Shown piece by piece: positions 12,548 to 30,539 of a DNA stretch of 45,746 nt. This stretch comes from Lachnospiraceae bacterium (GTDB lineage: Bacteria; Bacillota; Clostridia; Lachnospirales; Lachnospiraceae). The translations under genes were made by a program, and so were the position numbers. The notes under the pieces were generated by a model that saw only the letters and a program-made list of their open reading frames with translations, did not search any database and was not told the DNA's origin. The stretch lies in the NCBI GenBank assembly GCA_018384375.1, contig JAHAYJ010000055.1, forward strand, positions 1 to 45,746, written 5' to 3'. Position 1 is the first letter of the stretch; each line of letters begins with the position of its first letter.

Positions 12548-14896
12548 ATGGCAATCGTAAAGTACATTCTTCCGAAACTGATAAAGAAGAACATAAAAAT
12601 ATTCATATCATTGATCTTGATTGCGGCGATGGGAATGGGTCTTCCAACGGCATTGCTTAACTCGTACAATGGGGTTCTGTATTCATTTGAGAAATACTTT
12701 GAGGAATATGGATTTCCTGATGTAACCATAATGTCTACAGCTCTGTTTGGAGAAGAAGAATTGAATGCGGCAGGTGAGTTGTCTGGTGTTGACGATGTGC
12801 AGGGTAGGCTTTGCGTAGATATCGAAGCTGCAAAGGGAGAAGATACTTTTGTTTCTCTGCGGTGCTATTCCATTGGAGAAACGGATTTCATGAGATATTC
12901 TGTGGTAGATCAGCTTTCAGAAGATGCGTATTTGGCGACGCAAGGCGATGAAACGGAGTGCCTTATCCCCATGGCAATGGAGATATGTTTTGCGGAATAT
13001 GCCGGTTTTGAACTTGGAGATGTATTTACTTTAAGTTTTCCGCAGGGAGAATATGAATGTGTTCTATCGGGACTTGTTTCTTCTCCGGAGTGGGAAATCA
13101 CCTACCGTGATAATTATTTTAACTTCAGTACGGATGAATTTGGGTATGTCCTCTTCTCTTATGAGGATCTGATAGAAATGACAGGAGTTCCTGATGAAAC
13201 CTATAATCAGGTTATGGTGCGGACAAAGCCGGACATCGAAGCGGTGGATGTGGAACAGCAGCTTTTATGCAGTGGATGGTTTGGTGACGGAGCATTTGGC
13301 TATACTTATGAAACTTCTCCGCAAAAGGAGTTTGTAGATTCTTGTGTGAATCCGCTGAAACCGTTGAGCTACTTCTTAGCCTTTTTCTTTTTTCTGATCG
13401 CTGCGCTGATGGTTTATTTGTTTTTATATCAGATTATTTGGGAGCAGAAGGAAGAATCGGGGATTCTTATGGCATTAGGTGTATCGAGAATCCGAATCGC
13501 CTGGGTGTATTTGGGATTTGGGATAGGTGTGTCTGTGATGGCAGGACTGATCGGAAGTGTGACGGGATACTTCCTGATGCAGTTGATATCCGGAGTATAT
13601 CAAGATGCCTTCATACTGCCGTATATGGTGAAGGTATTTTCTCTTGGTCTTGCACTGGCAGCGTCTTTGATGATGACGCTGGTAATGTTCTTTTCTTTTC
13701 TGTTAGCATCGATACAGATATTTCGCATGGATCCGGCGGATGCAATGAAGAATCAATTAGCACAAAGCAGAGGAAAACCATCCTGGAAAATCTTTTCGAT
13801 ATTTGGATATGCTGCAAAGGTCTGCTTTTGCAGTGCGCTGCGCAATAAACGGCGGCTGGTTTTATCCATGCTTTCTACGATTCTCGCGGTTACTATGATT
13901 AGCCTTTCGTTTCAGTACGTAGATGCAGGAAAATACGTAGTAAAGCACACGTTCGGTGAGCGGCTTTTATATGACTGCCAGATCTTTCTGAACAATGTTT
14001 GTACAAAAGAAGAGGTAAAAGCTGAGTTGGAGGATGTTGAAGATATCCTTGAAAGCGAAGTTTTCTTAATAACAAATATGGACATCGAAGCCGCAGGGAA
14101 AGAGGTATTTACAACATTTTACGGAGTGGAACCGTCCTCTAAGCTTCTCCGGAATCGTGGGCAAAACGGAGAAATTCTGCAGCCGGAAGATGGTATCGTT
14201 TTGGCTCGATATACGGCAGACGAACTGCAGGTTTCCGTTGGTGATCAGGTGGTAGTCGGGGGAAAGAAGCTGACGGTCACCGGAATCCACGAAGAAAATA
14301 TAATGCTTGTTCAGTATGTCACTCACGAAGTGTTTTCAGAAATTACAGAGGATGGTGCCATTGGTGCTTTCTTAAAACTAAAGGATGGCGTTACAAAGGC
14401 AGAAATCTACTCTGTTTTACAGGAAAAAGAAACATTTTCGTATCTTTCTATGAAAGATTCACAGCAAATATCTGTGGAAAACCGTCTTAACAATACAGAG
14501 GTTGGTGTATATATCGTAATCGTAATGTCCTTTTTGATAGGTGCATTGATCATATATAATATGTCTCTTATCAACTTTAAGGAGAGAAAAAGGGTATACG
14601 CCACTATGCTCACCCTGGGAATGCAGGAAACAGAGTTGGGCTGGGCGAGTTTTGCGGAACTTGTTGCGCAATATGTTATTTCCATGCTGGTGGGAGGCTT
14701 TGCTGGCAGTGGATTAGGAAAACTCCTGCTTAAGATGACTTCAACCGACAGTATTTATTATACAAAAGCATTTTCCTTATCCAGCATGTTTCTAATTTGG
14801 TTCTGTGTTGGCGCATTCATGGTTTTGGGACACCTGCTGGCACTATGGCAAATGAAGAAAATAGATATTGTAGAAGAATTGAAATCGAAGGAGTGA
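12548..14896 (+). CDS. ABC transporter permease, FtsX-like
   Basis: A 782-residue permease of the MacB/FtsX class: an N-terminal transmembrane helix (FISLILIAAMGMGLPTALLN), a large extracytoplasmic domain (about 50-270), three helices (about 280-400), a second helix plus outer domain (about 430-640), and three final helices. This duplicated FtsX arrangement is typical of permeases that drive lipoprotein or peptide export or sense antimicrobials by mechanotransmission. ATG 12548 follows CAGGAGA. Its ATPase partner is the GAF-ABC fusion two genes downstream. The substrate is unknown. Confidence 0.88.
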   Translation: MAIVKYILPKLIKKNIKIFISLILIAAMGMGLPTALLNSYNGVLYSFEKYFEEYGFPDVTIMSTALFGEEELNAAGELSGVDDVQGRLCVDIEAAKGEDTFVSLRCYSIGETDFMRYSVVDQLSEDAYLATQGDETECLIPMAMEICFAEYAGFELGDVFTLSFPQGEYECVLSGLVSSPEWEITYRDNYFNFSTDEFGYVLFSYEDLIEMTGVPDETYNQVMVRTKPDIEAVDVEQQLLCSGWFGDGAFGYTYETSPQKEFVDSCVNPLKPLSYFLAFFFFLIAALMVYLFLYQIIWEQKEESGILMALGVSRIRIAWVYLGFGIGVSVMAGLIGSVTGYFLMQLISGVYQDAFILPYMVKVFSLGLALAASLMMTLVMFFSFLLASIQIFRMDPADAMKNQLAQSRGKPSWKIFSIFGYAAKVCFCSALRNKRRLVLSMLSTILAVTMISLSFQYVDAGKYVVKHTFGERLLYDCQIFLNNVCTKEEVKAELEDVEDILESEVFLITNMDIEAAGKEVFTTFYGVEPSSKLLRNRGQNGEILQPEDGIVLARYTADELQVSVGDQVVVGGKKLTVTGIHEENIMLVQYVTHEVFSEITEDGAIGAFLKLKDGVTKAEIYSVLQEKETFSYLSMKDSQQISVENRLNNTEVGVYIVIVMSFLIGALIIYNMSLINFKERKRVYATMLTLGMQETELGWASFAELVAQYVISMLVGGFAGSGLGKLLLKMTSTDSIYYTKAFSLSSMFLIWFCVGAFMVLGHLLALWQMKKIDIVEELKSKE

Positions 14897-14900
14897 TAGA

Positions 14901-15680
14901 ATGACATTGAATATATCTGTGGGAAACACCGTGTGGTGGATGGTCATCGCGCTGGGCTGCGCAGTGACTGCTTTTATGTATTTGCTTCTGCGCAAAAAAA
15001 ACAACGAACAGAAACGGAAAGCTATGCTGTTTATCGGATGTGCCATTATGGTTTTGTTTTATGTACAAAGAATCCTTATGTTCCGTTTTGATGCTTTTGT
15101 TTCGATATATGGCAGCGGATGGGAGCATATCTTGACTGAACTGTTGCCATTTAATCTATGCTATTTAAGCGTGATAGTGATGATTATCGGAGCACACTTA
15201 AATAACAAATATCTTCTCGGTTTTTGTTTTTACATTTCGTCTATGGGTGCTGTGCTTGCGTTGGTGGCGCCAGTCGGAATATTTACAGACACGAACCTGC
15301 TGCAGCCTGCAGTTGGTATGTTTTATTTCTTACACATTCTTGTGGCAGCTGCATATTGGAACATAGGTTTTCTCGGACTCGTAAAGCCGGGAAAAGTAAT
15401 GGCAATAACTTCGCCTCTTTTGTTAAATGTCATATCTTTTCTGGTACATATAGTGAATTGGCTGGGCAGAAGTGTAGGGATTGATTGCATGAATTATTTT
15501 TATACTTTTGATCCGGAAGGGAGTTCGATGCTTGAGCTGTTTTGGGAATGGGTTCCTGTGCCGTATTTCTATTTGATAGTTCCGGGATATGTGATTTTTG
15601 CCGGATGGTCAGTGCTGCTGACACTGCTGTACCGATGTGGAGTGCTTTTAAGGAAGGGGAAGGTGAGGACATTTGAATAA
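14901..15680 (+). CDS. YwaF-like (TIGR02206-type) integral membrane protein
   Basis: A 259-residue protein with about seven transmembrane helices. ILTELLPFNLCYLSVIVMII resembles the conserved ELLPLHLC motif of the YwaF/TIGR02206 family, and FYTFDPEGSSMLELF followed by PYFYLIVPGYVIF matches the family's C-terminal region. The function is unknown. It starts 4 nt after the FtsX permease stop and overlaps the GAF-ABC gene by 8 nt, so it is a fixed member of the transporter operon, perhaps a third membrane subunit. Confidence 0.75.
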   Translation: MTLNISVGNTVWWMVIALGCAVTAFMYLLLRKKNNEQKRKAMLFIGCAIMVLFYVQRILMFRFDAFVSIYGSGWEHILTELLPFNLCYLSVIVMIIGAHLNNKYLLGFCFYISSMGAVLALVAPVGIFTDTNLLQPAVGMFYFLHILVAAAYWNIGFLGLVKPGKVMAITSPLLLNVISFLVHIVNWLGRSVGIDCMNYFYTFDPEGSSMLELFWEWVPVPYFYLIVPGYVIFAGWSVLLTLLYRCGVLLRKGKVRTFE

Positions 15681-16887
15681 ATATGATTTTGAGTGGCGTG
15701 TACTGGAACTGCTGAATAAAAGCAAGCACACGGCTGAAACGATGAGAATCTTTCTGGAAGAGCTTGCTGCGCAGTCCAAGGCAGCCGCCGCTTCCGTATG
15801 GCTGCTGGATGAAGAAGACAATATCAGCCTGTATGCGGCCTGTGGGGAGAAATGCGGTGGGTTGGAACAGATCGTTCTAAAACGCGGTCAGGGAATCTGC
15901 GGAGCATGTATTGAACAAAACGATGTTGTTCTTGCAGAAGATGTTGCACAGGATCGGCGATGGGAGAGCAAGGCGGACATTCTGACGGGGTTTCATACTG
16001 AAAGTATTCTGTCTGTTCCAATTTCTGCATCGCAATCGGGAGCTTTTGGCTGCCTGCAGTTACTGAACAAAAAAGAGGGAGCCTTTGATGAAAACGACAT
16101 TTCACTGGGCCGTACAATGGCCGATTTGTTGGCGAAATGGTTCTATGAAAGCGGTATCAGTATTCCTTCTTTGAAAAAACGAGAGGTTCTGGTGGAGGGT
16201 GTGAATCTGATAAAGACTTACGGCGAGGGTAATGCTTGTGTGCATGCCTTGGATGATGTAAGTTTTCGTATCCATAAAGGAGAACTCACCGTAATTCTTG
16301 GCAGCAGCGGCAGCGGGAAAAGTACGCTTCTAAATGTAATCGGGGGTATGACCAGGCCGGACAGCGGAAAGGTGATTTTTGACGGTTTCGGTGATATCGC
16401 AGGCTTTCGGAAAAAACAGCAGACAGTGTTTCGCAAAGATATGGTGGGATTCGTTTTCCAGTTCTATAACCTGATACCTGAGCTGACGGTATGGGAGAAT
16501 GTTGCCTTAGTTGCGGATATGGCTAAAATACCGCGCCCGGTTGAGGAAGTGCTTGAGATGATGGGATTGTCTCATAGGAAGGATCACTATCCGTCTCAGC
16601 TGTCAGGCGGAGAACAGCAAAGAGTATCTATTGCAAGAGCCCTTGTAAAAAACGCAGCTTTTCTGCTTTGCGATGAACCAACCGGAGCTCTGGACTACAA
16701 TACAGGAAAGCAAATATTGATTGAATTGGAAAAGCTGGCGAGGGAGCAGGGACAAACGGTGGTGATAGTCACTCATACCACCTCCATCGCCACCATTGCT
16801 GACCGTATTATAAAAATGCGAAGCGGCCGAATTGTGGAGGAAATAGTAAATCCGCACCCTGTTTCGGCAGCCATGGTGGAATGGTAA
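15673..16887 (+). CDS. ABC transporter ATPase with N-terminal GAF domain
   Basis: Residues about 15-150 form a GAF domain (AAAASVWLLDEEDNISLYAA, GQGICGACIEQNDVVLAEDV, SILSVPISASQSGAFGCLQL). Residues about 170-395 form a LolD/MacB-type ATPase: Walker A GSSGSGKS (210-217), Q-loop FVFQFYNL, signature LSGGEQQRVSIARAL, Walker B AFLLCDEPTGALD, H-loop VIVTHTT. The start is TTG 15673 with AGGTGAGG 4 nt upstream; no ATG precedes the GAF domain. GAF domains bind small ligands, classically cyclic nucleotides, so transport may be ligand-gated. The fusion is unusual for this ATPase class. It energises the FtsX-like permease of the operon. Confidence 0.9.
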   Translation: MNKYDFEWRVLELLNKSKHTAETMRIFLEELAAQSKAAAASVWLLDEEDNISLYAACGEKCGGLEQIVLKRGQGICGACIEQNDVVLAEDVAQDRRWESKADILTGFHTESILSVPISASQSGAFGCLQLLNKKEGAFDENDISLGRTMADLLAKWFYESGISIPSLKKREVLVEGVNLIKTYGEGNACVHALDDVSFRIHKGELTVILGSSGSGKSTLLNVIGGMTRPDSGKVIFDGFGDIAGFRKKQQTVFRKDMVGFVFQFYNLIPELTVWENVALVADMAKIPRPVEEVLEMMGLSHRKDHYPSQLSGGEQQRVSIARALVKNAAFLLCDEPTGALDYNTGKQILIELEKLAREQGQTVVIVTHTTSIATIADRIIKMRSGRIVEEIVNPHPVSAAMVEW

Positions 16888-18416: not shown

Positions 18417-18600
18417 CAATGCGAGTGCAACCATAGTCTGCTGTCAAAGTGCATGCAACTATGAGGAAAGAATTAAAATAACAATTATTACGGCGATGGA
18501 ATGGGCAGTATTTCTATGGTAAATTTAAGTGATACGCCAAAATAATGGCACTTACAGGATGCGGAATAATAACGGTTTTCTTAGATGTGGAGATAACAGC

Positions 18601-19035
18601 ATGAGGCAGGGATCAATTTATTTAGTTGTAAAAGATTTTGACAAATCATTGGATTTTTATGAAAAAGTACTGGATATGAAGGTAAGTGCAACCAATGGAA
18701 AAAGATTTGCAATGTTTCATTATACCGGGTTGAATTTATGCCTTTTAAATGGGTACTATGATGATCAATTCCCTGAACAGAAAGAAACGAAAGGTCCTAT
18801 ATATGATGAATATGATAATATGAGTGCAATTGCAAACGCAAATAATACGAAAAAGGTATTCATCAATCTGGGGGTGGAAGATTTAGATAAGGAATATCAA
18901 CGCTTAGTTGATTTGGGAATTGGAATCAATATGACTCCGATAAGATACTTAAATGTTTTTTCTCCGTATTGGTATTTTACATTTATGGATCCTGATGGGA
19001 ATCCCATTGAGATTGCGGGAGGTCACAAAGAGTAA
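18601..19035 (+). CDS. VOC (glyoxalase/bleomycin-resistance) family protein
   Basis: A 144-residue single VOC domain with two beta-alpha-beta-beta-beta modules: SIYLVVKDFDKSLDFYEKVL opens module 1, KVFINLGVEDLDKEYQRLVDLG opens module 2, and YFTFMDPDGNPIEIAG is the closing metal-side signature. Members bind metal or small ligands and act in detoxification or isomerisation; which applies here is unknown. ATG 18601 with GGAGA upstream is preferred over the longer ORF start, whose extra 24 residues look non-native. Confidence 0.85.
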   Translation: MRQGSIYLVVKDFDKSLDFYEKVLDMKVSATNGKRFAMFHYTGLNLCLLNGYYDDQFPEQKETKGPIYDEYDNMSAIANANNTKKVFINLGVEDLDKEYQRLVDLGIGINMTPIRYLNVFSPYWYFTFMDPDGNPIEIAGGHKE

Positions 19036-19068
19036 CTATTTTTGCGGTGAAAGGTGTTAAAACTCTGA

Positions 19069-19097
19069 TTGAATAAGTCGATGCCTTATGATATAAT
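19069..19097 (+). promoter_or_regulatory. Promoter of the dlt-like operon
   Basis: TTGAAT (19069-19074), 17-bp spacer, TATAAT (19092-19097), 48 bp before the MBOAT start codon. It is the only promoter that I find for the five-gene run 19145-24897. Confidence 0.75.
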
Positions 19098-19144
19098 TTT
19101 CGTGCGTTGAATGGTGTATTATCTAACCATACTGAGGAATTACT

Positions 19145-20746
19145 ATGATAGATTTTTATTCATTGGGCTTTGTCCTGTTTCTGGGGCTTTGCCTGCTTTG
19201 TTATTACACAGTATTCAGAAATAAACAGTGGGTTGTGGCGCTTGTTGCAAGTCTTTCCTTCTATCTTTATGCAGGAGGAAAGAATATTGTTGCACTCCTC
19301 TTTACGGCATTTACGATCTTTCTGGGGGCGCGCTTCATGGAGCGTGCGGAAGAAAAAGGAAAGATAAGGGAAGAGGAAGAGAAGAATGATCCTGCCTTTG
19401 CAACGCTTTCCCCAACGGAAAAACGTGAAAGAAAAAGGCACCTGAAGGAAGCAGTCAGAAAGGAAAAAAGAATTTGGCTCTACAGCGCACTGATTCTCAA
19501 CCTGCTGATTCTCTGTTACACAAAGTACTGGACATACTTTTTTCATTCCAGACTGGGAATTATTCTCCCTCTGGGCATTTCTTTTTATACATTTCAGTCC
19601 ATCGGATATCTTGTGGATATTTATAACCGAAAGTATCCTGCGGAGAAATCTTTTTTACGATTCCTTCTATTTATTTCCTGGTTTCCCCAGCTTTTGCAGG
19701 GGCCTATCGGTAGATACGATGCACTTGCTCATCAATTTGAAGGAGAACACAGACTAAACTGGGATCTAATCAAGAAAGCACACTTTCTTATTTTATTAGG
19801 GTGCCTGAAAAAGTATGCCATTGCAGATCTTCTGTTTGATCCTATTGCGAGGATCCTTGACGGCGCTGTCTTACAGAAGCCCGGAAGTCTTCTCTCTTTT
19901 GGGATTCTTTTGTATTCTGCGCAGCAGTATGCTGATTTTTCCGGCGGAATCGATATAGTGACCGGTATCTCGGCATTGTTTGGAGTTACCCTTGCACCAA
20001 ATTTCAGACAACCTTATTTTGCTACCTCACTCGGTGATTTTTGGCGCAGATGGCACATATCCCTGGGCGCTTTCATGAGAGACTATATTTTCTATCCGCT
20101 TGCACTTACAAAACCCATGATGAATCTGGGCAAAAAGGCGGGGAAGAAGTACGGAAAGCATCTGGAAAGAGTGCTGCCTGCCTGCATCGCGAATATTGTG
20201 GTCTTTATCGTGGTGGGTGTGTGGCATGGTCCACAGCTTCACTATCTTTTATGGGGGCTCTATAATGGAATTATCATTGCGCTAAGTGACCTTTTGGCGC
20301 CTGCTTTTACAGGTATTGCGAAGAAACTGAAGATAAATACACAAACCGGCGCTTTTCATGTTTTCCGTATCCTTCGGACGTTTTTTATCGTCAATATCGG
20401 CTGGTACTTTGACAGAATTGAGGATGTGGCGGCCTCTTTTACGGCTTTGCGGCTTTCTTTTACATCCTTCCGGGCAGGGGAGTTTTTCCTTGCGGTGAGA
20501 GATACTCTTTTTAACAGCGATACCGGGAAACCATTGTATGCTGCAGGAAGTCTTCTCGTAGCTTTGCTTTCCATCATCGTGGTATTCACAGTAAGTATCC
20601 TGAGGGAAAAGGGAAAAGAACCGGTGAAGGTACTGGAAAATTCGGTGCTTTTTCACGCAGTTTTTGTGACAGCCATGCTGTTCCTTACGCTGCTGTCTTT
20701 CATGTTTGTACAAAATGCGGGAGGGTTCCTTTATGCAAATTTCTGA
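19145..20746 (+). CDS. MBOAT O-acyltransferase (DltB/AlgI-like)
   Basis: A 533-residue polytopic membrane protein, first gene of a dlt-like operon. SLGDFWRRWHISLGAFMRDY (conserved His near 304) and VVGVWHGPQLHYLLWGLYNG (catalytic His near 361) are the MBOAT signatures, and LPLGISFYTFQSIGYLVDIY matches the AlgI/DltB group. In D-alanylation, DltB passes the aminoacyl group from the carrier protein across the membrane; a similar job is inferred here. A charged loop near residues 68-110 (RAEEKGKIREEEEK...) is longer than usual. ATG 19145 has GAGGA upstream, and the next gene starts within its last 14 nt. Confidence 0.93.
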   Translation: MIDFYSLGFVLFLGLCLLCYYTVFRNKQWVVALVASLSFYLYAGGKNIVALLFTAFTIFLGARFMERAEEKGKIREEEEKNDPAFATLSPTEKRERKRHLKEAVRKEKRIWLYSALILNLLILCYTKYWTYFFHSRLGIILPLGISFYTFQSIGYLVDIYNRKYPAEKSFLRFLLFISWFPQLLQGPIGRYDALAHQFEGEHRLNWDLIKKAHFLILLGCLKKYAIADLLFDPIARILDGAVLQKPGSLLSFGILLYSAQQYADFSGGIDIVTGISALFGVTLAPNFRQPYFATSLGDFWRRWHISLGAFMRDYIFYPLALTKPMMNLGKKAGKKYGKHLERVLPACIANIVVFIVVGVWHGPQLHYLLWGLYNGIIIALSDLLAPAFTGIAKKLKINTQTGAFHVFRILRTFFIVNIGWYFDRIEDVAASFTALRLSFTSFRAGEFFLAVRDTLFNSDTGKPLYAAGSLLVALLSIIVVFTVSILREKGKEPVKVLENSVLFHAVFVTAMLFLTLLSFMFVQNAGGFLYANF

Positions 20747-21794
20747 TAAAAAGAAAATTTCCGCAGGTACTGTAACTGCCCTTCTCATCGTGGTTTTGTT
20801 TCTTCTTGGGAATGAAATCTTAAGCTATGTACTGACCCCTTATAGAGGGTCTTCACTTGAAATGTGGTTGTATTTTAAGGAAGCGTCACCAGAGATGATC
20901 TATACCGGTTCTTCTCAGTGCCTCTGTGGCATTGATCCGGACACGATCGATGATGCTCTCCATACCTCTTCCTTTAACATGGGGACCAATATGCAGAGTT
21001 TTAGGAGCTCCTATTCAGCAATTCGTGCAGCAGTGGAAGAAAAGGGCGTGAGCAGGGTGGTTCTGTGTGTGGATGATGAGATTACGGGGATAGAGAGGGA
21101 AGACAATTTTCGGGCAGATGCCAGCTTCCAGAGAGCGAGAAATCTTACGACAGACTTCATGACGGCAGGTAAGGAAACAGGAGAGTTCCTTTTGGATGAA
21201 CCGGTCCTTATGCACACAGGATCTGTTAATTTCTTCTTTCCCTGGACCTATGACAGGGTGACAGATATCGGGCAGAATCTAAGAGAAAAAAGAGACGATA
21301 AGGTTTATGGGGAGAGCGGACACAGGCTCTCTTCGGGACGGGAACCTGCAGAAGAGATCCTCACGGCAGATTTTCGCGTTATTGGAAGAGAGGAAGCACG
21401 CGAGTGGAACCTCACATCAGATTCCCTGGAGGAGCTTTCGTTAAGCAGCGACAGCAGAAGAGAGCTTAACAGGATCGCTTCTTATTGCAGAGAAAAGGGT
21501 GTGGAGCTCATTCCCATTACGCTTCCCTACCCAACGGCACTGAATATTTATTCCCTTGACAGTTACAAGGAGACAGTAAGGCAGCTCACGCTTCTTTTTG
21601 ACGAATATGGCTTTACCTATCAAAATTTCAATCTGGCAAAGCCGGAATATTACGAGATGGAGCTTGATGAATATAAGGATACCGGTCACTTTAATACAGC
21701 CGGCGCGATCCGTTTTTCAAAAATACTGGCAGAGTATATTGAAGAACCACAGGAGCAGAGAAAAGAGAAGTTCTACACGCCGGATGAGTTTTAA
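20733..21794 (+). CDS. DltD-like membrane-anchored SGNH protein
   Basis: A 353-residue protein with one N-terminal transmembrane segment (VTALLIVVLFLLGNEILSYV) and an extracytoplasmic SGNH-like domain. YTGSSQCLCGIDPD gives the nucleophile block (Gly59-Ser60-Ser61) and DTGHFNTAGA the DxxH pair (Asp316, His319), matching the DltD arrangement. DltD assists the last step of surface D-alanylation. Similarity to classical DltD is low, but the order after an MBOAT gene supports the role. ATG 20733 has GGGAGG 8 nt upstream and overlaps the MBOAT gene. Confidence 0.82.
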   Translation: MQISDKKKISAGTVTALLIVVLFLLGNEILSYVLTPYRGSSLEMWLYFKEASPEMIYTGSSQCLCGIDPDTIDDALHTSSFNMGTNMQSFRSSYSAIRAAVEEKGVSRVVLCVDDEITGIEREDNFRADASFQRARNLTTDFMTAGKETGEFLLDEPVLMHTGSVNFFFPWTYDRVTDIGQNLREKRDDKVYGESGHRLSSGREPAEEILTADFRVIGREEAREWNLTSDSLEELSLSSDSRRELNRIASYCREKGVELIPITLPYPTALNIYSLDSYKETVRQLTLLFDEYGFTYQNFNLAKPEYYEMELDEYKDTGHFNTAGAIRFSKILAEYIEEPQEQRKEKFYTPDEF

Positions 21795-21825
21795 GGAACC
21801 GGCACAACCGGGAGAATAATATAGT

Positions 21826-23448
21826 ATGAAAAACGTTTTGGAATTTCTGGAAAAGAGCGCGCTTTCAGTTCCAACCGCGATTGCCTGCGGAGATGAAAAA
21901 GAGGAACTGAGTTACAGCGCATTGCTTTTGGCATCGAAAAAACTGGGGGCATTCCTTTCGCAGCACACTGCGCCAAGGAGGCCTGTGGCCCTTTATCTTG
22001 AGAAAAGCGTGCCGACCCTCATCGGCTTTTTTGGTATTGTTTATGCGGGAGGATTTTACAGTGCTCTGGATCCTTCTCAGCCGATGGCGAGAACGGTGAA
22101 AATTCTTGAGACCCTTGAGCCCTCCGTTGTGCTCACAGACTATGCAAACAGGGAGAGGGCAGAAGAGATTATTGCAGAGCTTAGAGAAACGGCGAATACG
22201 ACTATTTCCGTAGAGCTTTATGTGCTGAATGATCTTCCCGGCATAAAGGACAGGGGAGAGGCGCAGGCGGAAGGCGTTACGAAGGAGGAGGAGGCGTTGC
22301 TTTCCGATATCCGTGATCAGGCCATGGATGTGGATCCTCTGTATGTGAACTTTACCAGTGGCAGTACAGGAGTACCTAAGGGCGTTACCGTGGGACACCG
22401 CTCAGTCATCAGCTTCATTTCTTCTTTTGTGGAGATATTTGGCATAGACAAAGAGGATGTTCTTGGAAATCAGGCTCCGTTTGATTTTGATGTCTCCGTC
22501 AAGGATATTTATTCTGCACTCTTTGCAGGCTGCAGGCTGCAACTGATTCCCCGCAGCTATTTTAGTAATCCCATGGAGCTGATGGATTACCTTTCGGAAA
22601 AGAAGATCACGAATCTCACCTGGGCGGTAAGTGCCTTGTGCTTTGTCTCCGTTATGAATGGTCTTGAGTACAAGGTTCCCGAAAAGGTAAAAAGAGTTAT
22701 GTTTTCCGGAGAGGTCATGCCTATCAAGCACCTGAATCACTGGAAGAAGTATCTGCCGGAAGCTATGTATGTGAATCTGTATGGACCAACAGAGATCACC
22801 TGCAATTGCTGTTATTATATTTTGGACAGAGAGTTTCAAGAGGGAGAAAAGATCCCGCTGGGTAAGACTTTCCCAAATGAAAAGGTGTTCCTTCTGGGCG
22901 AGGACGGGAAAGAAATTCTTCCAGGAACGATTGCCGCTGTGGAAGACGGAGAGCATCTTAAGAACGAAGAAAGTCCGGAGGGAGAGATCCTTGTCTCCGG
23001 CGCCGGGCTGGCCATCGGTTATTATAAGGATACCGTGAAGACAGAGGAGGCATTTACGCAGAATCCTCTTAACAAGGCCTACTATGAGCGATGCTATCGG
23101 ACGGGGGATCTGGCCAGATATAATGAGAAGGGGGAACTTGTGTATTGTTCCCGTAAGGATTTTCAGATCAAGCGCATGGGGCACCGTATTGAGCTCGGTG
23201 AAATTGAGAGTACGGCCATGAAAATTGAAGAAGTAACGAGAGCGCTGGCTCTCTATGAAGCGGATGAGCAGAAACTCTGGCTCTTCTATACAGGGAAAGC
23301 GGACAGAAAGGAAATCGCGAAGACATTAAGGAGTCTGCTGCCACCCTTTATGATTCCTAACAAGACGATTCAGATAGAGGAAATGCCTCTTACCAAGAAT
23401 GGAAAAATTGACAGGGCAGCACTTCTTGCAAGGACGAAATCACTATGA
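21826..23448 (+). CDS. Amino-acid adenylation enzyme (DltA-like)
   Basis: A 540-residue stand-alone ANL adenylation enzyme. A3 NFTSGSTGVPKGV (from Asn175), A4-like APFDFDVSVKDIYSAL with the Asp that usually binds the alpha-amino group, A5 NLYGPTEITC, A7 YRTGDLA, A8 FQIKRMGHRIELGEIE, and the A10 lysine K527 in TKNGKID. It should activate an amino acid with ATP and load it on the carrier protein encoded at 24670. The identity of the amino acid cannot be read by eye. It starts 31 nt after the DltD-like gene and shares ATGA with the decarboxylase gene (4-nt overlap). Confidence 0.92.
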   Translation: MKNVLEFLEKSALSVPTAIACGDEKEELSYSALLLASKKLGAFLSQHTAPRRPVALYLEKSVPTLIGFFGIVYAGGFYSALDPSQPMARTVKILETLEPSVVLTDYANRERAEEIIAELRETANTTISVELYVLNDLPGIKDRGEAQAEGVTKEEEALLSDIRDQAMDVDPLYVNFTSGSTGVPKGVTVGHRSVISFISSFVEIFGIDKEDVLGNQAPFDFDVSVKDIYSALFAGCRLQLIPRSYFSNPMELMDYLSEKKITNLTWAVSALCFVSVMNGLEYKVPEKVKRVMFSGEVMPIKHLNHWKKYLPEAMYVNLYGPTEITCNCCYYILDREFQEGEKIPLGKTFPNEKVFLLGEDGKEILPGTIAAVEDGEHLKNEESPEGEILVSGAGLAIGYYKDTVKTEEAFTQNPLNKAYYERCYRTGDLARYNEKGELVYCSRKDFQIKRMGHRIELGEIESTAMKIEEVTRALALYEADEQKLWLFYTGKADRKEIAKTLRSLLPPFMIPNKTIQIEEMPLTKNGKIDRAALLARTKSL

Positions 23449-24650
23449 CAACGGAAATTTTTAGTAAAATCAAAGAGATGGGAACGCCGGCTTTTCTTTT
23501 TGACGAAGGTGCATTTAAAAAAAGACTACATGAAATTGACCGGATTCTCAACGGGGAGTATGAAGAGGAAAAAAGAATAAAGATCTGTTATGCGGCCAAG
23601 GCAAATCCCTTTTTGCTTACGGCAGCGGCAGAAGTGGTGGACAGATTGGAAATTTGCTCCCAAGGGGAAATGGATATCGTGCATTCCCTTTCAATCGATG
23701 GGGAGAAGGTCCTGTATTCCGGTGTCAGTAAGACTGCAGAGGATATCAGAAAAGCTATCTTGCAAGGCATGCGGCATGCGACGGCAGAGTCTCTCAGGCA
23801 TTTAGACCTTCTTCAGCAGGAAGGTTCCCTTGCGGGTGTCAAACTCACGGTCTTGCTGAGGCTCAGCTCCGGCGCCCAGTTCGGCATGACAAGGGCGGAT
23901 ATTGAGAAGGCCCTTGCAGAAAGAGAAAAATACACAGCGCTTCAGATTGAAGGCATTCATTTCTTCCGGGGAACGCAGCGAAGGAAGATAAAACAGCAGG
24001 AAGAAGAGCTTATGATGCTGGAGGAATTCATCAAGGATCTCAGAGAAAAATATGATCTTCCGCTTCCGAAGCTGGAATATGGTCCGGGACTTCCGGTGCC
24101 TTATTTTGAGGGGGAGGATTTTTTAGATACGTTGCTTCCCCTTAAGGAGCTTTTGCCCGCACTCTTAAAGGCCTCAGAATGGGCGGAGGTGACTGTTGAG
24201 ATGGGAAGGTTTTTTGCAGCTTCCTGCGGCACGTATCTTACGACAGTGACGGATCTTAAGGATGCGGAGGATGCACACATTGCCATTCTGGACGGCGGTA
24301 TTCATCAGCTTACTTACGCGGGGCAGATGATGGGAATGAAGGTCCCCAGACTGTCTTTGCCGCATCGCAACGGTTCCAAAGATACGGTAAAACAACACTA
24401 CATGCTCTGTGGTTCGCTTTGCACCACGGGAGATGTGCTGGTAAGGGATGTGGAACTTCCCTCTCTTCAGGTGGGAGACGTGCTTGCTTTTGAAAATGTG
24501 GGTGCCTATACGGTGACGGAGGGAATCGGATTATTTCTTTCTCATGCACTCCCGTCAGTATATCTGTATGATGAAGGAAGAGAGGAGGGAGAAGCGCTCC
24601 TTCTTGTAAGAGGCCCTGTGCCTACAAGTACTTTGAATTCAAAACAGTAA
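23445..24650 (+). CDS. Fold-type III PLP-dependent decarboxylase (BtrK/DAPDC/ODC-like)
   Basis: A 401-residue enzyme of the alanine-racemase fold decarboxylases. PLP lysine K52 in ICYAAKANPFLL, RLEICSQGEMDIV, the glycine-rich phosphate loop GPGLPVPYFEG, VTVEMGRFFAASCGTYLT (EPGR position changed to EMGR), catalytic CGSLCTTGDVL (Cys322/Cys326, Asp330), and FENVGAYTVTEGIG. Free amino-acid decarboxylases share these, but so does BtrK, which decarboxylates glutamyl groups while bound to a carrier protein. Sitting between an adenylation gene and a carrier gene, the carrier-bound reaction is the more likely one here. Its presence separates this operon from standard dlt. Confidence 0.88.
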   Translation: MTTEIFSKIKEMGTPAFLFDEGAFKKRLHEIDRILNGEYEEEKRIKICYAAKANPFLLTAAAEVVDRLEICSQGEMDIVHSLSIDGEKVLYSGVSKTAEDIRKAILQGMRHATAESLRHLDLLQQEGSLAGVKLTVLLRLSSGAQFGMTRADIEKALAEREKYTALQIEGIHFFRGTQRRKIKQQEEELMMLEEFIKDLREKYDLPLPKLEYGPGLPVPYFEGEDFLDTLLPLKELLPALLKASEWAEVTVEMGRFFAASCGTYLTTVTDLKDAEDAHIAILDGGIHQLTYAGQMMGMKVPRLSLPHRNGSKDTVKQHYMLCGSLCTTGDVLVRDVELPSLQVGDVLAFENVGAYTVTEGIGLFLSHALPSVYLYDEGREEGEALLLVRGPVPTSTLNSKQ

Positions 24651-24669
24651 AAAAGAAAGGAAATGAATT

Positions 24670-24897
24670 ATGGAAGAATTAATCAGTATTCTTGAAGAAA
24701 TCAGAGAGGACATCGATTTTGCGGACACTACCGATCTTATCGACGGTGGTATCCTGGATTCTTTTGATATTCTGCAGATCATCAGTGCGCTGAATGAGGC
24801 CTATGACATCTCTATTCCGGCGGCAGAGATCATTCCTGCCAATTTCAATAGTGCAGAAGCACTTCTTGCCATGGTAGAGAGACTTTCGGAGGAATAA
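24670..24897 (+). CDS. Acyl/aminoacyl carrier protein (DltC-like)
   Basis: A 75-residue acidic four-helix carrier protein. LIDGGILDSFDILQIISAL carries the phosphopantetheine serine, Ser31 in the D-S-F motif, and the C-terminus NFNSAEALLAMVERL closes the fold. It should hold the amino acid activated by the adenylation enzyme and present it to the decarboxylase and then the MBOAT protein. AAAGGAAATGAATT precedes ATG 24670, 19 nt after the decarboxylase gene. It is the last gene of the operon. Confidence 0.92.
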   Translation: MEELISILEEIREDIDFADTTDLIDGGILDSFDILQIISALNEAYDISIPAAEIIPANFNSAEALLAMVERLSEE

Positions 24898-24994
24898 GGT
24901 GTAATTTTCAAAATTTTTTTATAGGCGTTTTCGGATTTGCGATAGAAAGTATAAGGCAAACAACTTAAAAAGATGATAATGAATGGTTGATGTT

Positions 24995-25024
24995 GAAATG
25001 GGTAGGCTGATAGCTACCCATTTC
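24995..25024 (+). terminator. Hairpin after the dlt-like operon
   Basis: GAAATGGGTAG (24995-25005) pairs with CTACCCATTTC (25014-25024), 11 bp, perfect. The following bases (gtaattgt) are not a T tract, so it may stabilise the mRNA end or terminate weakly. Confidence 0.5.
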
Positions 25025-25156
25025 GTAATTGTAAACTCGGCAAAAACTGGAATCCGTTTATTATTGAAGATAAGAGATTAGAACGAATGCATTTGGAACA
25101 AAAATAAATTCCTTACGGAATTATGTGGGCTTTATCCATAGGAGCGGGAAATTGTA

Positions 25157-25230
25157 ATATATGCCCGGCAGGATAGGTGCGGGCGGGGCGCAGAAGCAAG
25201 GAAAGGCGATATATGCCCCGTAGGATAGGT
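25157..25230 (+). repeat. Two direct repeats in a gene-free stretch
   Basis: ATATATGCCC followed by AGGATAGGT occurs at 25157-25178 and again at 25209-25230 (22 bp, two internal differences, 52-bp period). The first can pair GCCCG/CGGGC around it. The 24898-25413 interval has no gene that I can support. Confidence 0.5.
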
Positions 25231-25413
25231 AAAGTACTACTTAAAGGAGAGTAGGCGAGACATAGAGAAGGAACTGAATCAATTTGTAGAAACTACATCA
25301 AAACTTTCCTATGTTCTCCTATGACAGGGAAAAGAGATAATTCAAGCCATATATCTGACAAATGGACATTCAGACAAATGGACATTCAAATTATGCCAGA
25401 GGAAAAGGGAACG

Positions 25414-26361
25414 GTGAGTAAAGTGATAAAGATTCGTTTGGCAAGCAGTGAGGACTTGCCGCGTTTAATGGAAATATTTGATATTGCACGTGGGTATCAG
25501 AAAAGTCATGGAAATGCGACACAATGGACGGAAGGATATCCGTCACAGCAGACAGTAGCGCAGGATATCCTGCAGGGATTTTGCTATGTGCTTGACGAGG
25601 ATGAGTATGTGGTCGCAACATTTGCATTGATCCCCGGCAAAGAACCAACATATCAGTTCATCGAGAACGGAAAATGGATCAGCGAGACGCCTTACTGTAC
25701 GATACACAGGGTTGCCAGTGACGGCACGAGACGAGGAATCGGTCAGATGATCATGGAATGGTGTCTGCGAAGGTGCCGGCACATTCGGATAGATACACAC
25801 AGGGATAATCTGGTAATGAGGCATTTGATTGAAAAAAGTGGTTTTACCTACTGTGGTGTCATTTATGTGGAGGATGGAACACCCAGAATGGCATATGAAT
25901 TTGCTGAGGGAGAGATACATAAAAAAGAATATCAGTTTTGGGGATGGGAGAATGCAAATGCTCCTGCAATTACAGATGAATATAAGGGTATAAAGACACC
26001 GATAGATTTATACAATGCTTTGTCTGATATCTGGTGTGCAGAGACTTGTGCACCGAGAATGAGAGACGATTGGACAAAGGAAAATAAGACACTTGGACAG
26101 TGCTCTATCACTGCTTTCCTGGCGCAGGACATATTTGGCGGAAAGGTGTATGGAATCCTCAGACCGGGCGGTAACTATCATTGCTATAATGTAATTGGAG
26201 ATTGCAGATTTGACCTTACCAGCGAGCAGTTCGGTGATGAGAACCTTGACTATGAGAACAATCCGGAGCAGTTTCGCAAGGTGCATTTTGCTAAGGAAGA
26301 AAAGCGACTCAGGTACGAATATCTGAAGTCAGAATTGAAAAAATATACGGAGGTACAGTGA
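25414..26361 (+). CDS. GNAT acetyltransferase fused to a YunG-like domain
   Basis: Residues about 1-150 are a GNAT domain (IRLASSEDLPRLMEIFDIAR, CTIHRVASDGTRRGIGQMIM as motif A, RHLIEKSGFTYCGVIYVEDG as motif B). Residues about 190-300 match the YunG family (DIWCAETCAPRMRDDW, LGQCSITAFLAQDIFGG, GNYHCYNVIGDCRFDLTSEQFG), often stand-alone in Firmicutes. The function of the second half is unknown; its C-x-H-N-D pattern looks papain-like to me but this is a guess. The start is uncertain: GTG 25414 or GTG 25423 fits the domain, while ATG 25321 adds an unrelated leader. The stop overlaps the next start (TGATG). Confidence 0.8.
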   Translation: MSKVIKIRLASSEDLPRLMEIFDIARGYQKSHGNATQWTEGYPSQQTVAQDILQGFCYVLDEDEYVVATFALIPGKEPTYQFIENGKWISETPYCTIHRVASDGTRRGIGQMIMEWCLRRCRHIRIDTHRDNLVMRHLIEKSGFTYCGVIYVEDGTPRMAYEFAEGEIHKKEYQFWGWENANAPAITDEYKGIKTPIDLYNALSDIWCAETCAPRMRDDWTKENKTLGQCSITAFLAQDIFGGKVYGILRPGGNYHCYNVIGDCRFDLTSEQFGDENLDYENNPEQFRKVHFAKEEKRLRYEYLKSELKKYTEVQ

Positions 26362-27719: not shown

Positions 27720-28931
27720 ATGAACGCAGTAGGTATCGATGTTTCTAAGGGGAAAAGTATGGTTGCAATCATGAGACCTTTCGGTGAGATTGTATCCACT
27801 CCCTTTGAAATCAAACACACATCCAGTGACATCAATTCACTGATTGAGATCATCAATTCTGTCGAAGGCGAATCTCGCATTGTTATGGAGCACACAGGGC
27901 GCTATTACGAGGCTCTTGCCCATGAACTTTCGGCGGCAAATCTTTTTGTTAGTGCTATTAATCCTAAACTCATCAAGGACTTTGATAACGATTCACTTCG
28001 CAAAGTCAAATCAGACAAAGCTGATTCTGTTAAGATTGCCCGTTATGCGCTTGACAAGTGGCAAAACCTAAAACAGTATAGTGTTATGGATGAGTTACGA
28101 ATTCAGCTTAAAACTATGAATCGTCAGTTTGGTTTCTACACGAAACACAAAACCGCCATGAAGAATAATCTTATCGGCATCCTTGATCAGACCTATCCAG
28201 GAGTAAACTCTTACTTTGATAGCCCTGCTCGAAGTGATGGTAGCCAAAAATGGGTTGATTTCGCATCAACTTACTGGCATGTGGATTGTGTTCGTAAAAT
28301 GTCTCTTAACGCATTTATTGACCATTATCAAAAATGGTGTAAACGCAAGAAGTACAACTTCAGTCAATCAAAGGCTGAAGAAATCTATGGAAAAGCAAAG
28401 GAACTTGTTCCTGTACTTCCAAAAGATGAACTAACCAAGCTAATAATCAAACAAGCTGTAGATCAGCTTAATAGTGCATCAACCACCGTCGAAGAGTTAC
28501 GTACACTAATGAATGAGACAGCTTCAAAACTTCCAGAATATTCAATCGTGATGAATATGAAAGGGGTAGGTCCATCATTAGGTCCTCAGCTTATGGCTGA
28601 AATCGGTGATGTGAGCAGATTTACTCACAAGGGTGCCATCACTGCATTTGCGGGTGTTGACCCTGGCGTAAACGAATCTGGAACCCATGAGCAACGAAGT
28701 GTTCCCACTTCTAAAAGAGGCCCCGCTGATTTACGAAAAACACTCTTTCAGGTAATGGATGTACTCATCAAAACCATGCCACAGGACGATCCTGTTTATC
28801 AGTTCTTAGATAAGAAACGGGCACAGGGCAAGCCTTACTATGTCTACATGACCGCCGGTGCTAACAAGTTTCTTCGAATCTACTATGGTCGAGTGAAAGA
28901 ATATCTTGCCACTCTTCCTGAATCTGATTAA
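27720..28931 (+). CDS. IS110-family transposase (DEDD recombinase)
   Basis: A 403-residue protein with an N-terminal RuvC-like DEDD domain (GIDVSKGKSMVAI, MEHTGRYYEALAHEL, KVKSDKADSVKIARYALDKW) and a C-terminal transposase-20 domain (MKGVGPSLGPQLMAEIGDVSRF, FAGVDPGVNESG, PTSKRGPADLRK with the candidate catalytic Ser). IS110 recombinases use a bridge RNA to choose target and donor. ATG 27720 has AAGGAG upstream. The frame is intact, so the element may be active. Element ends cannot be placed because IS110 lacks terminal inverted repeats. Confidence 0.93.
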   Translation: MNAVGIDVSKGKSMVAIMRPFGEIVSTPFEIKHTSSDINSLIEIINSVEGESRIVMEHTGRYYEALAHELSAANLFVSAINPKLIKDFDNDSLRKVKSDKADSVKIARYALDKWQNLKQYSVMDELRIQLKTMNRQFGFYTKHKTAMKNNLIGILDQTYPGVNSYFDSPARSDGSQKWVDFASTYWHVDCVRKMSLNAFIDHYQKWCKRKKYNFSQSKAEEIYGKAKELVPVLPKDELTKLIIKQAVDQLNSASTTVEELRTLMNETASKLPEYSIVMNMKGVGPSLGPQLMAEIGDVSRFTHKGAITAFAGVDPGVNESGTHEQRSVPTSKRGPADLRKTLFQVMDVLIKTMPQDDPVYQFLDKKRAQGKPYYVYMTAGANKFLRIYYGRVKEYLATLPESD

Positions 28932-29054: not shown

Positions 29055-29354
29055 TCAATACTTTCTTGCCGCCGCGATCTCCCGGTTCCTGGCTTCTGCC
29101 TGCTCATACCTTGCCGCGATTTCCAGAAGCGCTTGCACATACTGCCCAATGAGTTGGCAGAACACATCCATCTGCTGACGGTCTCTTGTAAATGCCTGAT
29201 GAAAGGTATCCTTGGCAGATCCCTCCCACATGCTGCACAGAGAAGTCTCTTTCTCACTGAGCTGCTGTGCCTTTGCCTTAAACTGGCTGTTCAGCTCCTG
29301 AAGTCTCCCTGCCTTATTTCTGAGTTCTGTTGATGTTACCTGAAAAAATGCCAT
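29055..29354 (-). CDS. WXG100 family protein (EsxA-like)
   Basis: A 99-residue helical hairpin with the canonical turn SMWEGSAKDTFHQAF (W-x-G). The typical start MAFFQVTSTELRNKAGRLQE is at ATG 29354 behind AGGAGATATAGGA. WXG100 proteins are secreted as dimers by type VII systems and mark co-secreted effectors. It is the last gene of the locus; the IS110 element lies about 120 bp downstream, where effector or structural genes would be expected. The longer reading frame upstream is not used. Confidence 0.88.
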   Translation of the reverse strand: MAFFQVTSTELRNKAGRLQELNSQFKAKAQQLSEKETSLCSMWEGSAKDTFHQAFTRDRQQMDVFCQLIGQYVQALLEIAARYEQAEARNREIAAARKY

Positions 29355-29373
29355 TCCTATATCTCCTTTCCAT

Positions 29374-29688
29374 TCATAAATAAATTCTTGTTTCTGCAAG
29401 CAGTTGATTGACCTTTTCCATCCGATACATTTCTTCTGCCTGCTTCTCCATCTTTTCTGCAATCTTTAACAGTTCATCTGCCTCCTCTGCTAACTGACCT
29501 CCTAATCTCACCTCCTTTCCAATTAAAAGATCCGCACATTCGCTGTTCCAGACCTGTTTGGTATGGCTCACTACATGCAGGAATTCCTCCTGTGACTTCC
29601 TTCTGATCTCTTCCGACAGCCCCTTTATTTGCTCTGAAAGACTCTTAATCTCCTGAAAGTGCATCTCAATTTTCTGTGGTGACAACAA
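29374..29688 (-). CDS. WXG100-like protein, divergent turn
   Basis: About 104 residues, mostly coiled coil (FQEIKSLSEQIKGLSEEIRR, QLAEEADELLKIAEKMEKQA). Near the middle is QVWNSECADLLIG, where the W-x-G turn would be; the Gly is replaced by Ser. I chose TTG 29688, which has AGGAGG at 6-nt spacing and overlaps the preceding gene by 23 nt; ATG 29664 would shorten it by eight residues but lacks a site. It is probably a partner subunit for one of the canonical WXG100 proteins. Confidence 0.65.
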   Translation of the reverse strand: MLSPQKIEMHFQEIKSLSEQIKGLSEEIRRKSQEEFLHVVSHTKQVWNSECADLLIGKEVRLGGQLAEEADELLKIAEKMEKQAEEMYRMEKVNQLLAETRIYL

Positions 29689-29962
29689 TATTTTCCTCCT
29701 CAGCCTTCTCATAAACAGAAGCAATGATTTCCAGCTTCTCAATCTGCAAAATCAGCTGTGCAAAACTTCTTTTTCCCTTTTCCAGCCCTTCTTCAAATTC
29801 TTTTTGAAAGCCTCGCGCCACTTCCCCGTCAAAACAATCGGTAATGTGAATGCCCTCCTCACAGCCCTGCCTGAAATCCTGATCGGCAAGCGCCGCAGCC
29901 GCTACCCATCCTGCTTTCTTTTCCCGAAGCCTTCCTGTCGTAACTTTTATTTTTCCCGCCAT
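29666..29962 (-). CDS. WXG100-size protein with FDG turn
   Basis: A 98-residue helical protein MAGKIKVTTGRLREKKAGWV.. with DCFDGEVARGFQKEFEEG in the middle, where F-D-G stands in place of W-x-G. The second helix is LILQIEKLEIIASVYEKAEE. It lies 5 nt after the upstream WXG gene and overlaps the next gene, so all four are tightly packed. A secreted or partner protein is inferred from size, fold pattern and position. Confidence 0.65.
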   Translation of the reverse strand: MAGKIKVTTGRLREKKAGWVAAAALADQDFRQGCEEGIHITDCFDGEVARGFQKEFEEGLEKGKRSFAQLILQIEKLEIIASVYEKAEEENIVVTTEN

Positions 29963-29967
29963 TTTCT

Positions 29968-30279
29968 TTAAACCTTCATTTCCTCTATCTGTCTTCGATT
30001 ATTCTGTTCCACCGCCACCAGCTTTTCCGCCGAATCCAATACTCTTGAAAGGAGCATTTTCATTTCCTTGAGCTGCCCTCTTGTCTCTTTCATGCATCGG
30101 AGCATCTTTTCATACCATTCTTCAAAGGAAGCTCCTTCCCAGGCTTCCTTAAGGCTCTGCGTCTCCGTCTCCAAAATTTCAAGCTGGTCGGAAGCATCGG
30201 TAAATTTTTTCTCCATTCGTTCTATTTTTTTACTTAGGTTTCCTGCAAAAAGCTGTAGGCTCCATGTGATTTCATTCAT
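29968..30279 (-). CDS. WXG100 family protein
   Basis: A 103-residue protein with the helix-turn-helix hairpin LEILETETQSLKEAWEGASF..EEWYEKM (W-E-G turn). ATG 30279 is preceded by GAGGAG at 5-nt spacing; a GTG two codons earlier overlaps that site. It sits 14 nt after the EsaB-like gene. A likely secretion substrate of the neighbouring EssC. Confidence 0.8.
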   Translation of the reverse strand: MNEITWSLQLFAGNLSKKIERMEKKFTDASDQLEILETETQSLKEAWEGASFEEWYEKMLRCMKETRGQLKEMKMLLSRVLDSAEKLVAVEQNNRRQIEEMKV

Positions 30280-30293
30280 ATTCACTCCTCTGA

Positions 30294-30539
30294 CTAGATC
30301 AGGATCAGTCTGTCTCCGTTTCTGATCCCCTGCTCTGCAAGTCTCTCATTTTCCTTTAAAACGCACGCTCGCCTGATCGCATACAGATACCGCTTTTTTT
30401 CTCCGGCAGGCCTCAGGCTCTCCTTTTCCTCTATCAAGGAAACGATTTCTTTCATCAGGTCTCCCACCTCTCTCTCCTCATCTAATTCAAAGTCATAGAT
30501 CCGGTCCAGCACAGGAACCTGAATATCCACCACTATCAT
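30294..30539 (-). CDS. esaB: EsaB/YukD-like ubiquitin-fold protein
   Basis: An 81-residue protein IVVDIQVPVLDRIYDFELDE ... NGDRLILI, with the beta-grasp pattern of YukD/EsaB, the small cytosolic component of type VIIb secretion. ATG 30539 follows AAGGAGGT at 5-nt spacing and lies inside the last 47 nt of essC in another frame, an unusually long overlap. Its presence directly after essC confirms a T7SSb locus. Confidence 0.82.
   Translation of the reverse strand: MIVVDIQVPVLDRIYDFELDEEREVGDLMKEIVSLIEEKESLRPAGEKKRYLYAIRRACVLKENERLAEQGIRNGDRLILI

Follow-up and report, generated by a model that had tools for sequence, protein, structure and literature searches.

The operon and its relatives

We consider here a run of five genes on the forward strand of a 45,746-nucleotide stretch of DNA from a Lachnospiraceae bacterium (contig JAHAYJ010000055.1, assembly GCA_018384375.1; the whole stretch is called the window below), which resembles a dlt operon but contains a decarboxylase. 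The first gene (19145 to 20746) encodes an MBOAT transferase of 533 residues with a DltB-like fold, with His361 in a WHG motif and with a C-terminal motif FLYANF containing Tyr530; as read from the sequence, the codons of FLYANF occupy positions 20726 to 20743 and the stop codon positions 20744 to 20746, and the motif is the acyl-shuttle motif of PMC12148441 (this paper, PMC7857480 and PMC11253843 are all cited from excerpts). The second gene (20733 to 21794) encodes an SGNH acyltransferase of the DltD/PatB-like kind, with Ser61 in GSS, His319 in DTGH and, by hydropathy, a single N-terminal membrane helix at residues 16-34; it has no family match in family-profile scans and is assigned by its structural model and fold match. 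Then follow a stand-alone adenylation enzyme of the DltA lineage (21826 to 23448; pocket segments FDFDVSVKD, WAVSA, MFSG and LYGPTEITCNC), a BtrK-like pyridoxal phosphate (PLP) decarboxylase of the alanine-racemase fold (23445 to 24650; Lys52, GSLCTTGD and EMGR) and an acyl carrier protein (24670 to 24897), in which the phosphopantetheine site is Ser31 in LDSFD. A candidate promoter, TTGAAT-17-TATAAT with TG before the -10 element (19069 to 19097), is a consensus match only. The tight run described in the original prediction is real, with overlaps of 14 and 4 nucleotides and gaps of 31 and 19 nucleotides, and the identities given there hold by profile or by fold. The predicted catalytic residues are kept among the relatives: His361 and Tyr530 of the MBOAT are invariant in 36 aligned sequences, His319 of the SGNH protein is invariant and Ser61 present in at least 90% of 28 aligned sequences, and Ser31 is present in all 129 aligned carriers.

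The relatives form two sets. The first consists of the decarboxylase relatives found at E <= 1e-25, with the window decarboxylase as the query, in 299 genomes of Lachnospiraceae, 59 of which have one, the window's own counted; a profile search at a stricter limit, in genomes drawn from the whole phylum, gives relatives in 3 of 299, again with the own one counted. The second consists of the best 80 of at least 572 stretches from a scan of named genomes (tblastn at the loose limit of 1e-3, so that some are perhaps not cassette enzymes), and three of its decarboxylases duplicate those of the first set (L155/L064, L205/L065 and L169/L067). These best 80 cover Butyrivibrio, Roseburia and Eubacterium ramulus ATCC 29099 within the Lachnospiraceae, and outside them Gemmiger formicilis, Ruminococcus albus, Solobacterium and other Erysipelotrichaceae, Bulleidia extructa, Slackia exigua, Olsenella, Tractidigestivibacter and one Treponema, in whose stretch no MBOAT was found. 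Linkage was counted in those loci where 6 kb of DNA or more flanks the decarboxylase on each side (42 in the first set, 41 in the second). Within 6 kb of the decarboxylase, the adenylation gene is present in 42/42 and 39/41 of them and all four partners in 34/42 and 31/41, that is, in 65 of the 83 pooled loci, or in 62 of 80 after removal of the three duplicates. With A, DC and ACP denoting the adenylation, decarboxylase and acyl carrier protein genes, the commonest order is A-DC-ACP-MBOAT-SGNH in the first set (29/59), whereas the second most often has the order of the window, MBOAT-SGNH-A-DC-ACP (19/80). Of the expectation that the same five-domain order would recur across the relatives, it is thus the gene set that is conserved, also beyond the Lachnospiraceae, while the order is not fixed. 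The operon is also patchy, because a genome of the same genus (G264) has no cassette decarboxylase at 1e-25, its best profile match being 84.7 bits against 495-590 for cassette enzymes. It is noted that three Tractidigestivibacter/Olsenella loci (L180, L185 and L207) have a second MBOAT and two extra SGNH genes after A-DC-ACP.

The transfer arm, the decarboxylase and the loading pocket

According to PMC12148441, FXYXXF is an acyl-shuttle motif whose tyrosine receives the acyl group in DltX and PatA, and in PatA the motif is placed behind two helices that are absent from DltB. The window MBOAT has both features of this fused-shuttle type, namely the C-terminal FXYXXF and, in its structural model, two helices after the core (residues 463-488 and 501-521), followed by a tail (529-533) of low confidence, and DltB aligns to residues 1-433 only. 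The relaxed form xxYxx[FY] ends all 46 complete MBOATs of the first set (counting that of the window and leaving out one cut piece) and all 58 complete MBOATs over 400 bits of the second, which come from 53 loci; the strict form ends 20 of the 46 and 49 of the 58. A further 19 second-set pieces, which score low or are cut by a contig end, divide into ten with the terminal motif and nine without it, and of these nine, six reach the end of the DNA and three are closed (two in L184 and one in L228, the gene being apparently split over frames). By contrast, none of the six canonical DltB proteins examined, each from its own dlt locus in Lachnospiraceae, ends in this way. No separate DltX is seen by eye, and in the six frames of positions 18501 to 25400 the relaxed C-terminal motif otherwise occurs only in open reading frames of at most 40 codons. 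The operon is thus like PatA/PatB in that its MBOAT, paired with an SGNH protein, carries a tyrosine tail and two additional helices at the C-terminus, but PatA, which acts in peptidoglycan O-acetylation, takes acetyl-CoA (PMC12148441), whereas here a carrier with Ser31 and an adenylation enzyme are encoded in place of an acyl-CoA donor without carrier. In the excerpts of PMC12148441, the MBOAT/SGNH pathways besides Dlt are said to have no similar carrier protein; the operon departs from this division, since it combines a carrier donor with a shuttle tyrosine fused to the MBOAT. This tyrosine motif offers a concrete route for an acyl group to the surface.

Among solved structures, the window decarboxylase as a single sequence matches BtrK (5e-25) barely ahead of SbnH (3e-24) and a diaminopimelate decarboxylase (DapDC; 6e-23), while with a profile of 25 decarboxylases BtrK is clearly first, with 215.8 bits against 186.1 for SbnH and 175.9 for the best DapDC. 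In the tree, the cassette decarboxylases form a single clade (100/100), separate from DapDC. Lys52, the PLP site, Cys326 and Asp330 are present in all 59 decarboxylases of the first set. DapDC holds its substrate via an arginine on a 3-10 helix, and in ODC, ADC and DapDC an acidic residue (Asp) beside the catalytic cysteine binds the side-chain amino group (PMC7857480); in the aligned DapDC this acidic residue is Glu. Both the arginine and the acidic residue are missing in the window decarboxylase, which has DGGIHQLTYAGQ and LCTTGD, so that it has the features of a carrier-coupled, BtrK-type enzyme, that is, the PLP lysine and the catalytic cysteine without the determinants for diaminopimelate or basic amino acids. 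By contrast, the LysA-like enzyme of the same genome keeps the DapDC determinants (RPAMY and LCENND) and scores 278.1 bits with the lysA model, against 158.7 for the window decarboxylase and a cutoff of 297.9. Considering the window decarboxylase as a LysA duplicate was therefore rejected. The genome has a third paralogue, L003. In the original prediction, EMGR was said to fit an unusual substrate; this clue falls away, as EMGR is also found in the LysA-like enzyme, while BtrK has ESGR and SbnH has ECGR; Glu and Arg of the motif are present in 59/59 first-set decarboxylases, with Met between them in 41/59. Based on the kinship with BtrK and on the linkage of A, DC and ACP, we infer that the decarboxylation probably occurs on a carrier-bound amino acid.

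The adenylation enzymes of the cassettes have a nearly fixed pocket. Leaving out first-set fragments below 450 residues and second-set matches below 500 bits, Asp220 together with Lys or Arg at 226 is present in 55 of 56 decarboxylase-linked enzymes of the first set and in 70 of 70 of the second, and a basic residue at 226 in all 126; the sole exception at Asp220 is L078, where the decarboxylase lies in a longer, apparently fused protein. The pair is present in 4 of 20 hand-picked unlinked loci with no decarboxylase nearby (L107, with the same pocket at a contig end, is not counted) and in none of eight DltA-type rows (370-594 bits, four over the cutoff), which have Ser and Met or Ala. Asp235 of PheA holds the alpha-amino group (PMC11253843). 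At the corresponding position 222, ten rows of a second class (4 + 6) have Ile but retain Asp220 and Arg226, as would suit a substrate that has no amino group beside the activated carboxyl. From this pocket, it would be through the distal amino and carboxylate groups that the amino acid is held, and its other carboxyl would be activated. VinN binds 3-methylaspartate as a beta-amino acid, with a shortened beta13-beta14 loop containing an Arg (PMC11253843), while the loop of the window enzyme has the full length seen in DltA. Moreover, in the tree, the cassette enzymes group with DltA, away from four VinN/exosortase-like enzymes (100/99, flagged for long branches and for composition). A VinN-like adenylation enzyme was rejected on both grounds. 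Because the adenylation enzyme groups with DltA and the decarboxylase with BtrK, the operon is a mosaic in which the loader comes from the DltA lineage and the decarboxylase from that of BtrK.

It could be argued that diaminopimelate, or a two-headed amino acid like it, serves as the substrate, with the alpha-carboxyl loaded and the far end decarboxylated to give a lysyl carrier and then a lysyl surface ester, as would suit an adenylation loop of ordinary alpha-amino-acid length, the Asp222 that is kept in the first class and a decarboxylase clade that includes DapDC (PMC7857480). We consider this improbable, since the Arg and the acidic residue of DapDC are missing, Asp222 is absent in the second class and, presumably, free lysine could be loaded directly, making diaminopimelate a detour.

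With Dlt (DltA/B/C/D/X) the operon shares the carrier-bound amino acid, the MBOAT of DltB fold, the SGNH protein and the acyl-tyrosine motif, and the NCBIfam families nearest to the MBOAT and the carrier are DltB and DltC, with DltA nearest to the adenylation enzyme after the generic adenylation domain. On this likeness, the run might be a plain D-alanine dlt operon that contains a decarboxylase by chance. However, the decarboxylase is kept with its partners across many genera, the shuttle tail is on the MBOAT itself and not on DltX, the D-alanine pocket is replaced (FDFDVSVKD, WAVSA and MFSG in place of FSFDLSVMD, STPSF and LFCG of DltA), and the proteins stay below the Dlt cutoffs, the DltA-type scores being 259.3 and 252.1 bits against 476 and 559.85, so that this explanation is hardly credible. 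The operon thus appears to work like Dlt, yet by the tested features it is no Dlt operon.

Three further systems couple an adenylation enzyme or a carrier to a decarboxylase of this fold. The loading enzyme of butirosin synthesis is presumably BtrJ, and the decarboxylase of the VinN cassette is, we assume, VinO. In BtrI/BtrK of butirosin, an alanine-racemase-fold decarboxylase acts with a carrier, and BtrK is the nearest solved structure; BtrK supplies an antibiotic side chain (PMC7857480), while the window operon continues with a membrane transferase. The VinN-type 3-methylaspartate cassette and locus L234 have an adenylation enzyme adjoining an alanine-racemase-fold LCTxxD decarboxylase, but the VinN loop is shortened, with an Arg, and the window enzyme groups with DltA. 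The exosortase A ligase (TIGR03098) and decarboxylase (TIGR03099) are of the same enzyme types, and an ACP-A-DC trio (L235) lies near a VpsF-family polysaccharide gene, with no annotated MBOAT or SGNH gene in the 11 kb examined; by contrast, the window proteins score far below the two cutoffs (176.7 of 592.35 and 160.4 of 478.45 bits). LCTxxD is common to the window decarboxylase, BtrK and four carrier- or ligase-linked plasmid decarboxylases (4 records were examined out of the 65 from plasmids that contain a decarboxylase relative); one of the four adjoins methylaspartate mutase and polyketide synthase genes, in a locus that presumably resembles the vicenistatin clusters, and another lies near VpsF. 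Compared with all of these, the operon is classed as a new form of MBOAT-SGNH envelope acylation. A search of the open-access literature, covering no preprints and few subscription papers and thus weak evidence of absence, found no paper whose title pointed to such an operon.

The proposed pathway and what weighs against it

We propose that the operon encodes a dlt-like aminoacyl-ester machine with an extra decarboxylation on the carrier and with transfer to the surface through the MBOAT tyrosine and the SGNH protein, a model towards which, in our judgement, the evidence leans slightly. In the model, the adenylation enzyme would activate an acidic amino acid, most likely Asp or Glu, at its side-chain carboxyl and load it on the carrier protein, where the BtrK-like decarboxylase would strip the alpha-carboxyl, so that the carrier would hold a beta-alanyl or 4-aminobutyryl group as an omega-amino acyl thioester. 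The MBOAT would then carry this group through the membrane onto the tyrosine of its own FLYANF tail, from which the serine of the SGNH protein would take it and attach it as an ester to a teichoic acid or surface glycan, which would thereby gain a positive charge. The computed basis consists of the gene identities, the conserved gene set, the tyrosine motif, the catalytic residues, the kinship with BtrK, the loss of the DapDC residues and the distinct pocket. The conserved gene set, BtrK as the best solved relative and the MBOAT tyrosine motif bear out one part of the original prediction, the dlt-like transfer operon with a BtrK-like decarboxylase, and the decarboxylation before transfer that was proposed there remains the best explanation, on better grounds than were originally offered. 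The operon probably writes a different, positively charged amino-acid group on the surface, and the model predicts a definite chemical group and names its key residues: Tyr530 and His361 of the MBOAT, Ser61 of the SGNH protein, Cys326 of the decarboxylase, Ser31 of the carrier, and Asp220 and Lys226 of the adenylation enzyme.

A number of observations weigh against this model. With the full-length loop, the pocket would have to achieve side-chain activation in another way than through the short loop with Arg, which is present in the four decarboxylase-linked plasmid enzymes and not in the window enzyme. The basic residue at 226, taken by itself, is present in 12 of the 20 unlinked enzymes and is thus unspecific, the agreement at Asp220 and 226 may partly reflect descent, and both trees are flagged for long branches. 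In 11 of the 83 loci the trio of A, DC and ACP has no nearby MBOAT or SGNH gene (trio-only loci were itemised for 9 of 12), and in another 7 one or more of the partners are missing. That the adenylation substrate need not be decarboxylated is suggested most strongly by four operons (L140, L145, L149 and L152) with the same Asp220/Lys226 pocket and no decarboxylase: three of their genomes (G002, G057 and G147) give at most 44.1 bits with the decarboxylase profile, and the fourth (G082) has a decarboxylase in another cassette.

These four operons bear also on the possibility that the decarboxylase acts on a free cytoplasmic amino acid and that the adenylation enzyme loads the free product, e.g., beta-alanine or GABA, giving the same surface product: they look as if the adenylation enzyme could be supplied from another source. 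Two members of the decarboxylase clade, SbnH and FigC, do use soluble substrates (PMC7857480). On the other hand, the substrate of BtrK, the best solved relative, is a residue bound to a carrier (PMC7857480), the 11 loci without a nearby MBOAT still have A, DC and ACP together, and the basic pocket residue in the 126 linked rows is hard to explain without a second carboxylate, although the unlinked enzymes often have it too. We therefore regard the free substrate as rather unlikely and retain decarboxylation on the carrier.

Some sister operons without a decarboxylase carry other enzymes. In L145 and L149, with the Asp220/Lys226 pocket, a formyltransferase-family gene adjoins the adenylation gene or lies one gene from it, while L140 and L152, with the same pocket, have neither a formyltransferase nor a racemase. 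Five dlt-like A-ACP-MBOAT-SGNH operons (L133, L134, L142, L148 and L150) have a racemase gene directly before A, and all five racemases are over the cutoff of the cysteate racemase model (201.7-211.5 against 190) and over that of a wider amino acid racemase model. Their pocket is LYFDACLKE, with Lys226 but Tyr220; as a cysteate-type racemase is an acidic-amino-acid enzyme, these sisters would count in favour of an acidic substrate. It is tentatively suggested, as a plausible though somewhat doubtful generalisation, that gut Firmicutes and Coriobacteria have interchangeable dlt-like operons in which loading and transfer are constant and a plug-in tailoring enzyme sets the surface group: a decarboxylase for an omega-amino acyl group, an acidic-amino-acid racemase for a D-Asp-like group, or a formyltransferase for an N-formyl-aminoacyl group. 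If this is true, the window would hold the decarboxylase type and the first envelope ester known from on-carrier decarboxylation. Note also that a secreted transglutaminase-like protein precedes several of the racemase-headed operons, and that in L078 (6716-10057) a cassette-type decarboxylase is in frame with a long tail that comprises a membrane segment and, by eye, a transglutaminase-like part resembling that protein.

Acceptor and genomic surroundings

The acceptor is probably a surface glycan, possibly differing by host, because genes for RmlA/RmlD and glycosyltransferase-type proteins adjoin the operon in relatives. In L160, RmlA and RmlD, both over the cutoff, adjoin the operon, and a survey of 135 of 146 proteins flanking the second-set loci (the longest 11 excluded) gave 164 Pfam families, among the 25 listed being 5 NTP transferases, 3 glycosyltransferases of family 2, 3 CDP-glycerol glycerophosphotransferase-family proteins and 2 RmlD-family proteins. 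The window's own neighbours proved fruitless as a guide to the acceptor, those of the relatives being diverse; none of the scanned window neighbours is a polysaccharide-synthesis gene or points to an acceptor. This absence, together with the diversity of the flanks elsewhere, would suit delivery of the group by the MBOAT-SGNH pair to a secreted lipid or small molecule rather than to a surface polymer. However, an MBOAT and an SGNH protein with the shuttle motif are the pattern of envelope polymers (PMC12148441), and with the sugar-related and CDP-glycerol-type genes beside some loci, a secreted acceptor seems to us unlikely, and a surface glycan is preferred.

Neither a DltA nor a DltB over the cutoff is encoded in the window's own genome, where eight DltB-like MBOAT proteins, the window's included, all score below it, and DltA is over the cutoff in 4 of 150 sampled Lachnospiraceae genomes. 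With DltA so rare, a conserved operon that writes a different amine ester would be one answer to how these gut bacteria tune their surface charge.

A two-component pair lies near the cassette in 15-16 first-set loci (e.g., L034, L044, L047, L058, L088 and L090), and the response regulator of L088, the only one scanned, is OmpR/VanR-like, nearest the VanR types and below the cutoff. In the window, a GNAT acetyltransferase fused to a YunG domain lies directly downstream of the operon (25321-26361). Farther away are an FtsX-type permease with, farther along, an ABC ATPase fused to a GAF domain (12548-16887), and an FtsK/SpoIIIE-family ATPase of 1534 residues, whose family match is FtsK_SpoIIIE only, with small open reading frames downstream (29055-35097), a locus that we take to resemble a type VII secretion locus. 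Transposases of the IS110 family (27720-28931) and the IS66 family (66-1835) are also present.

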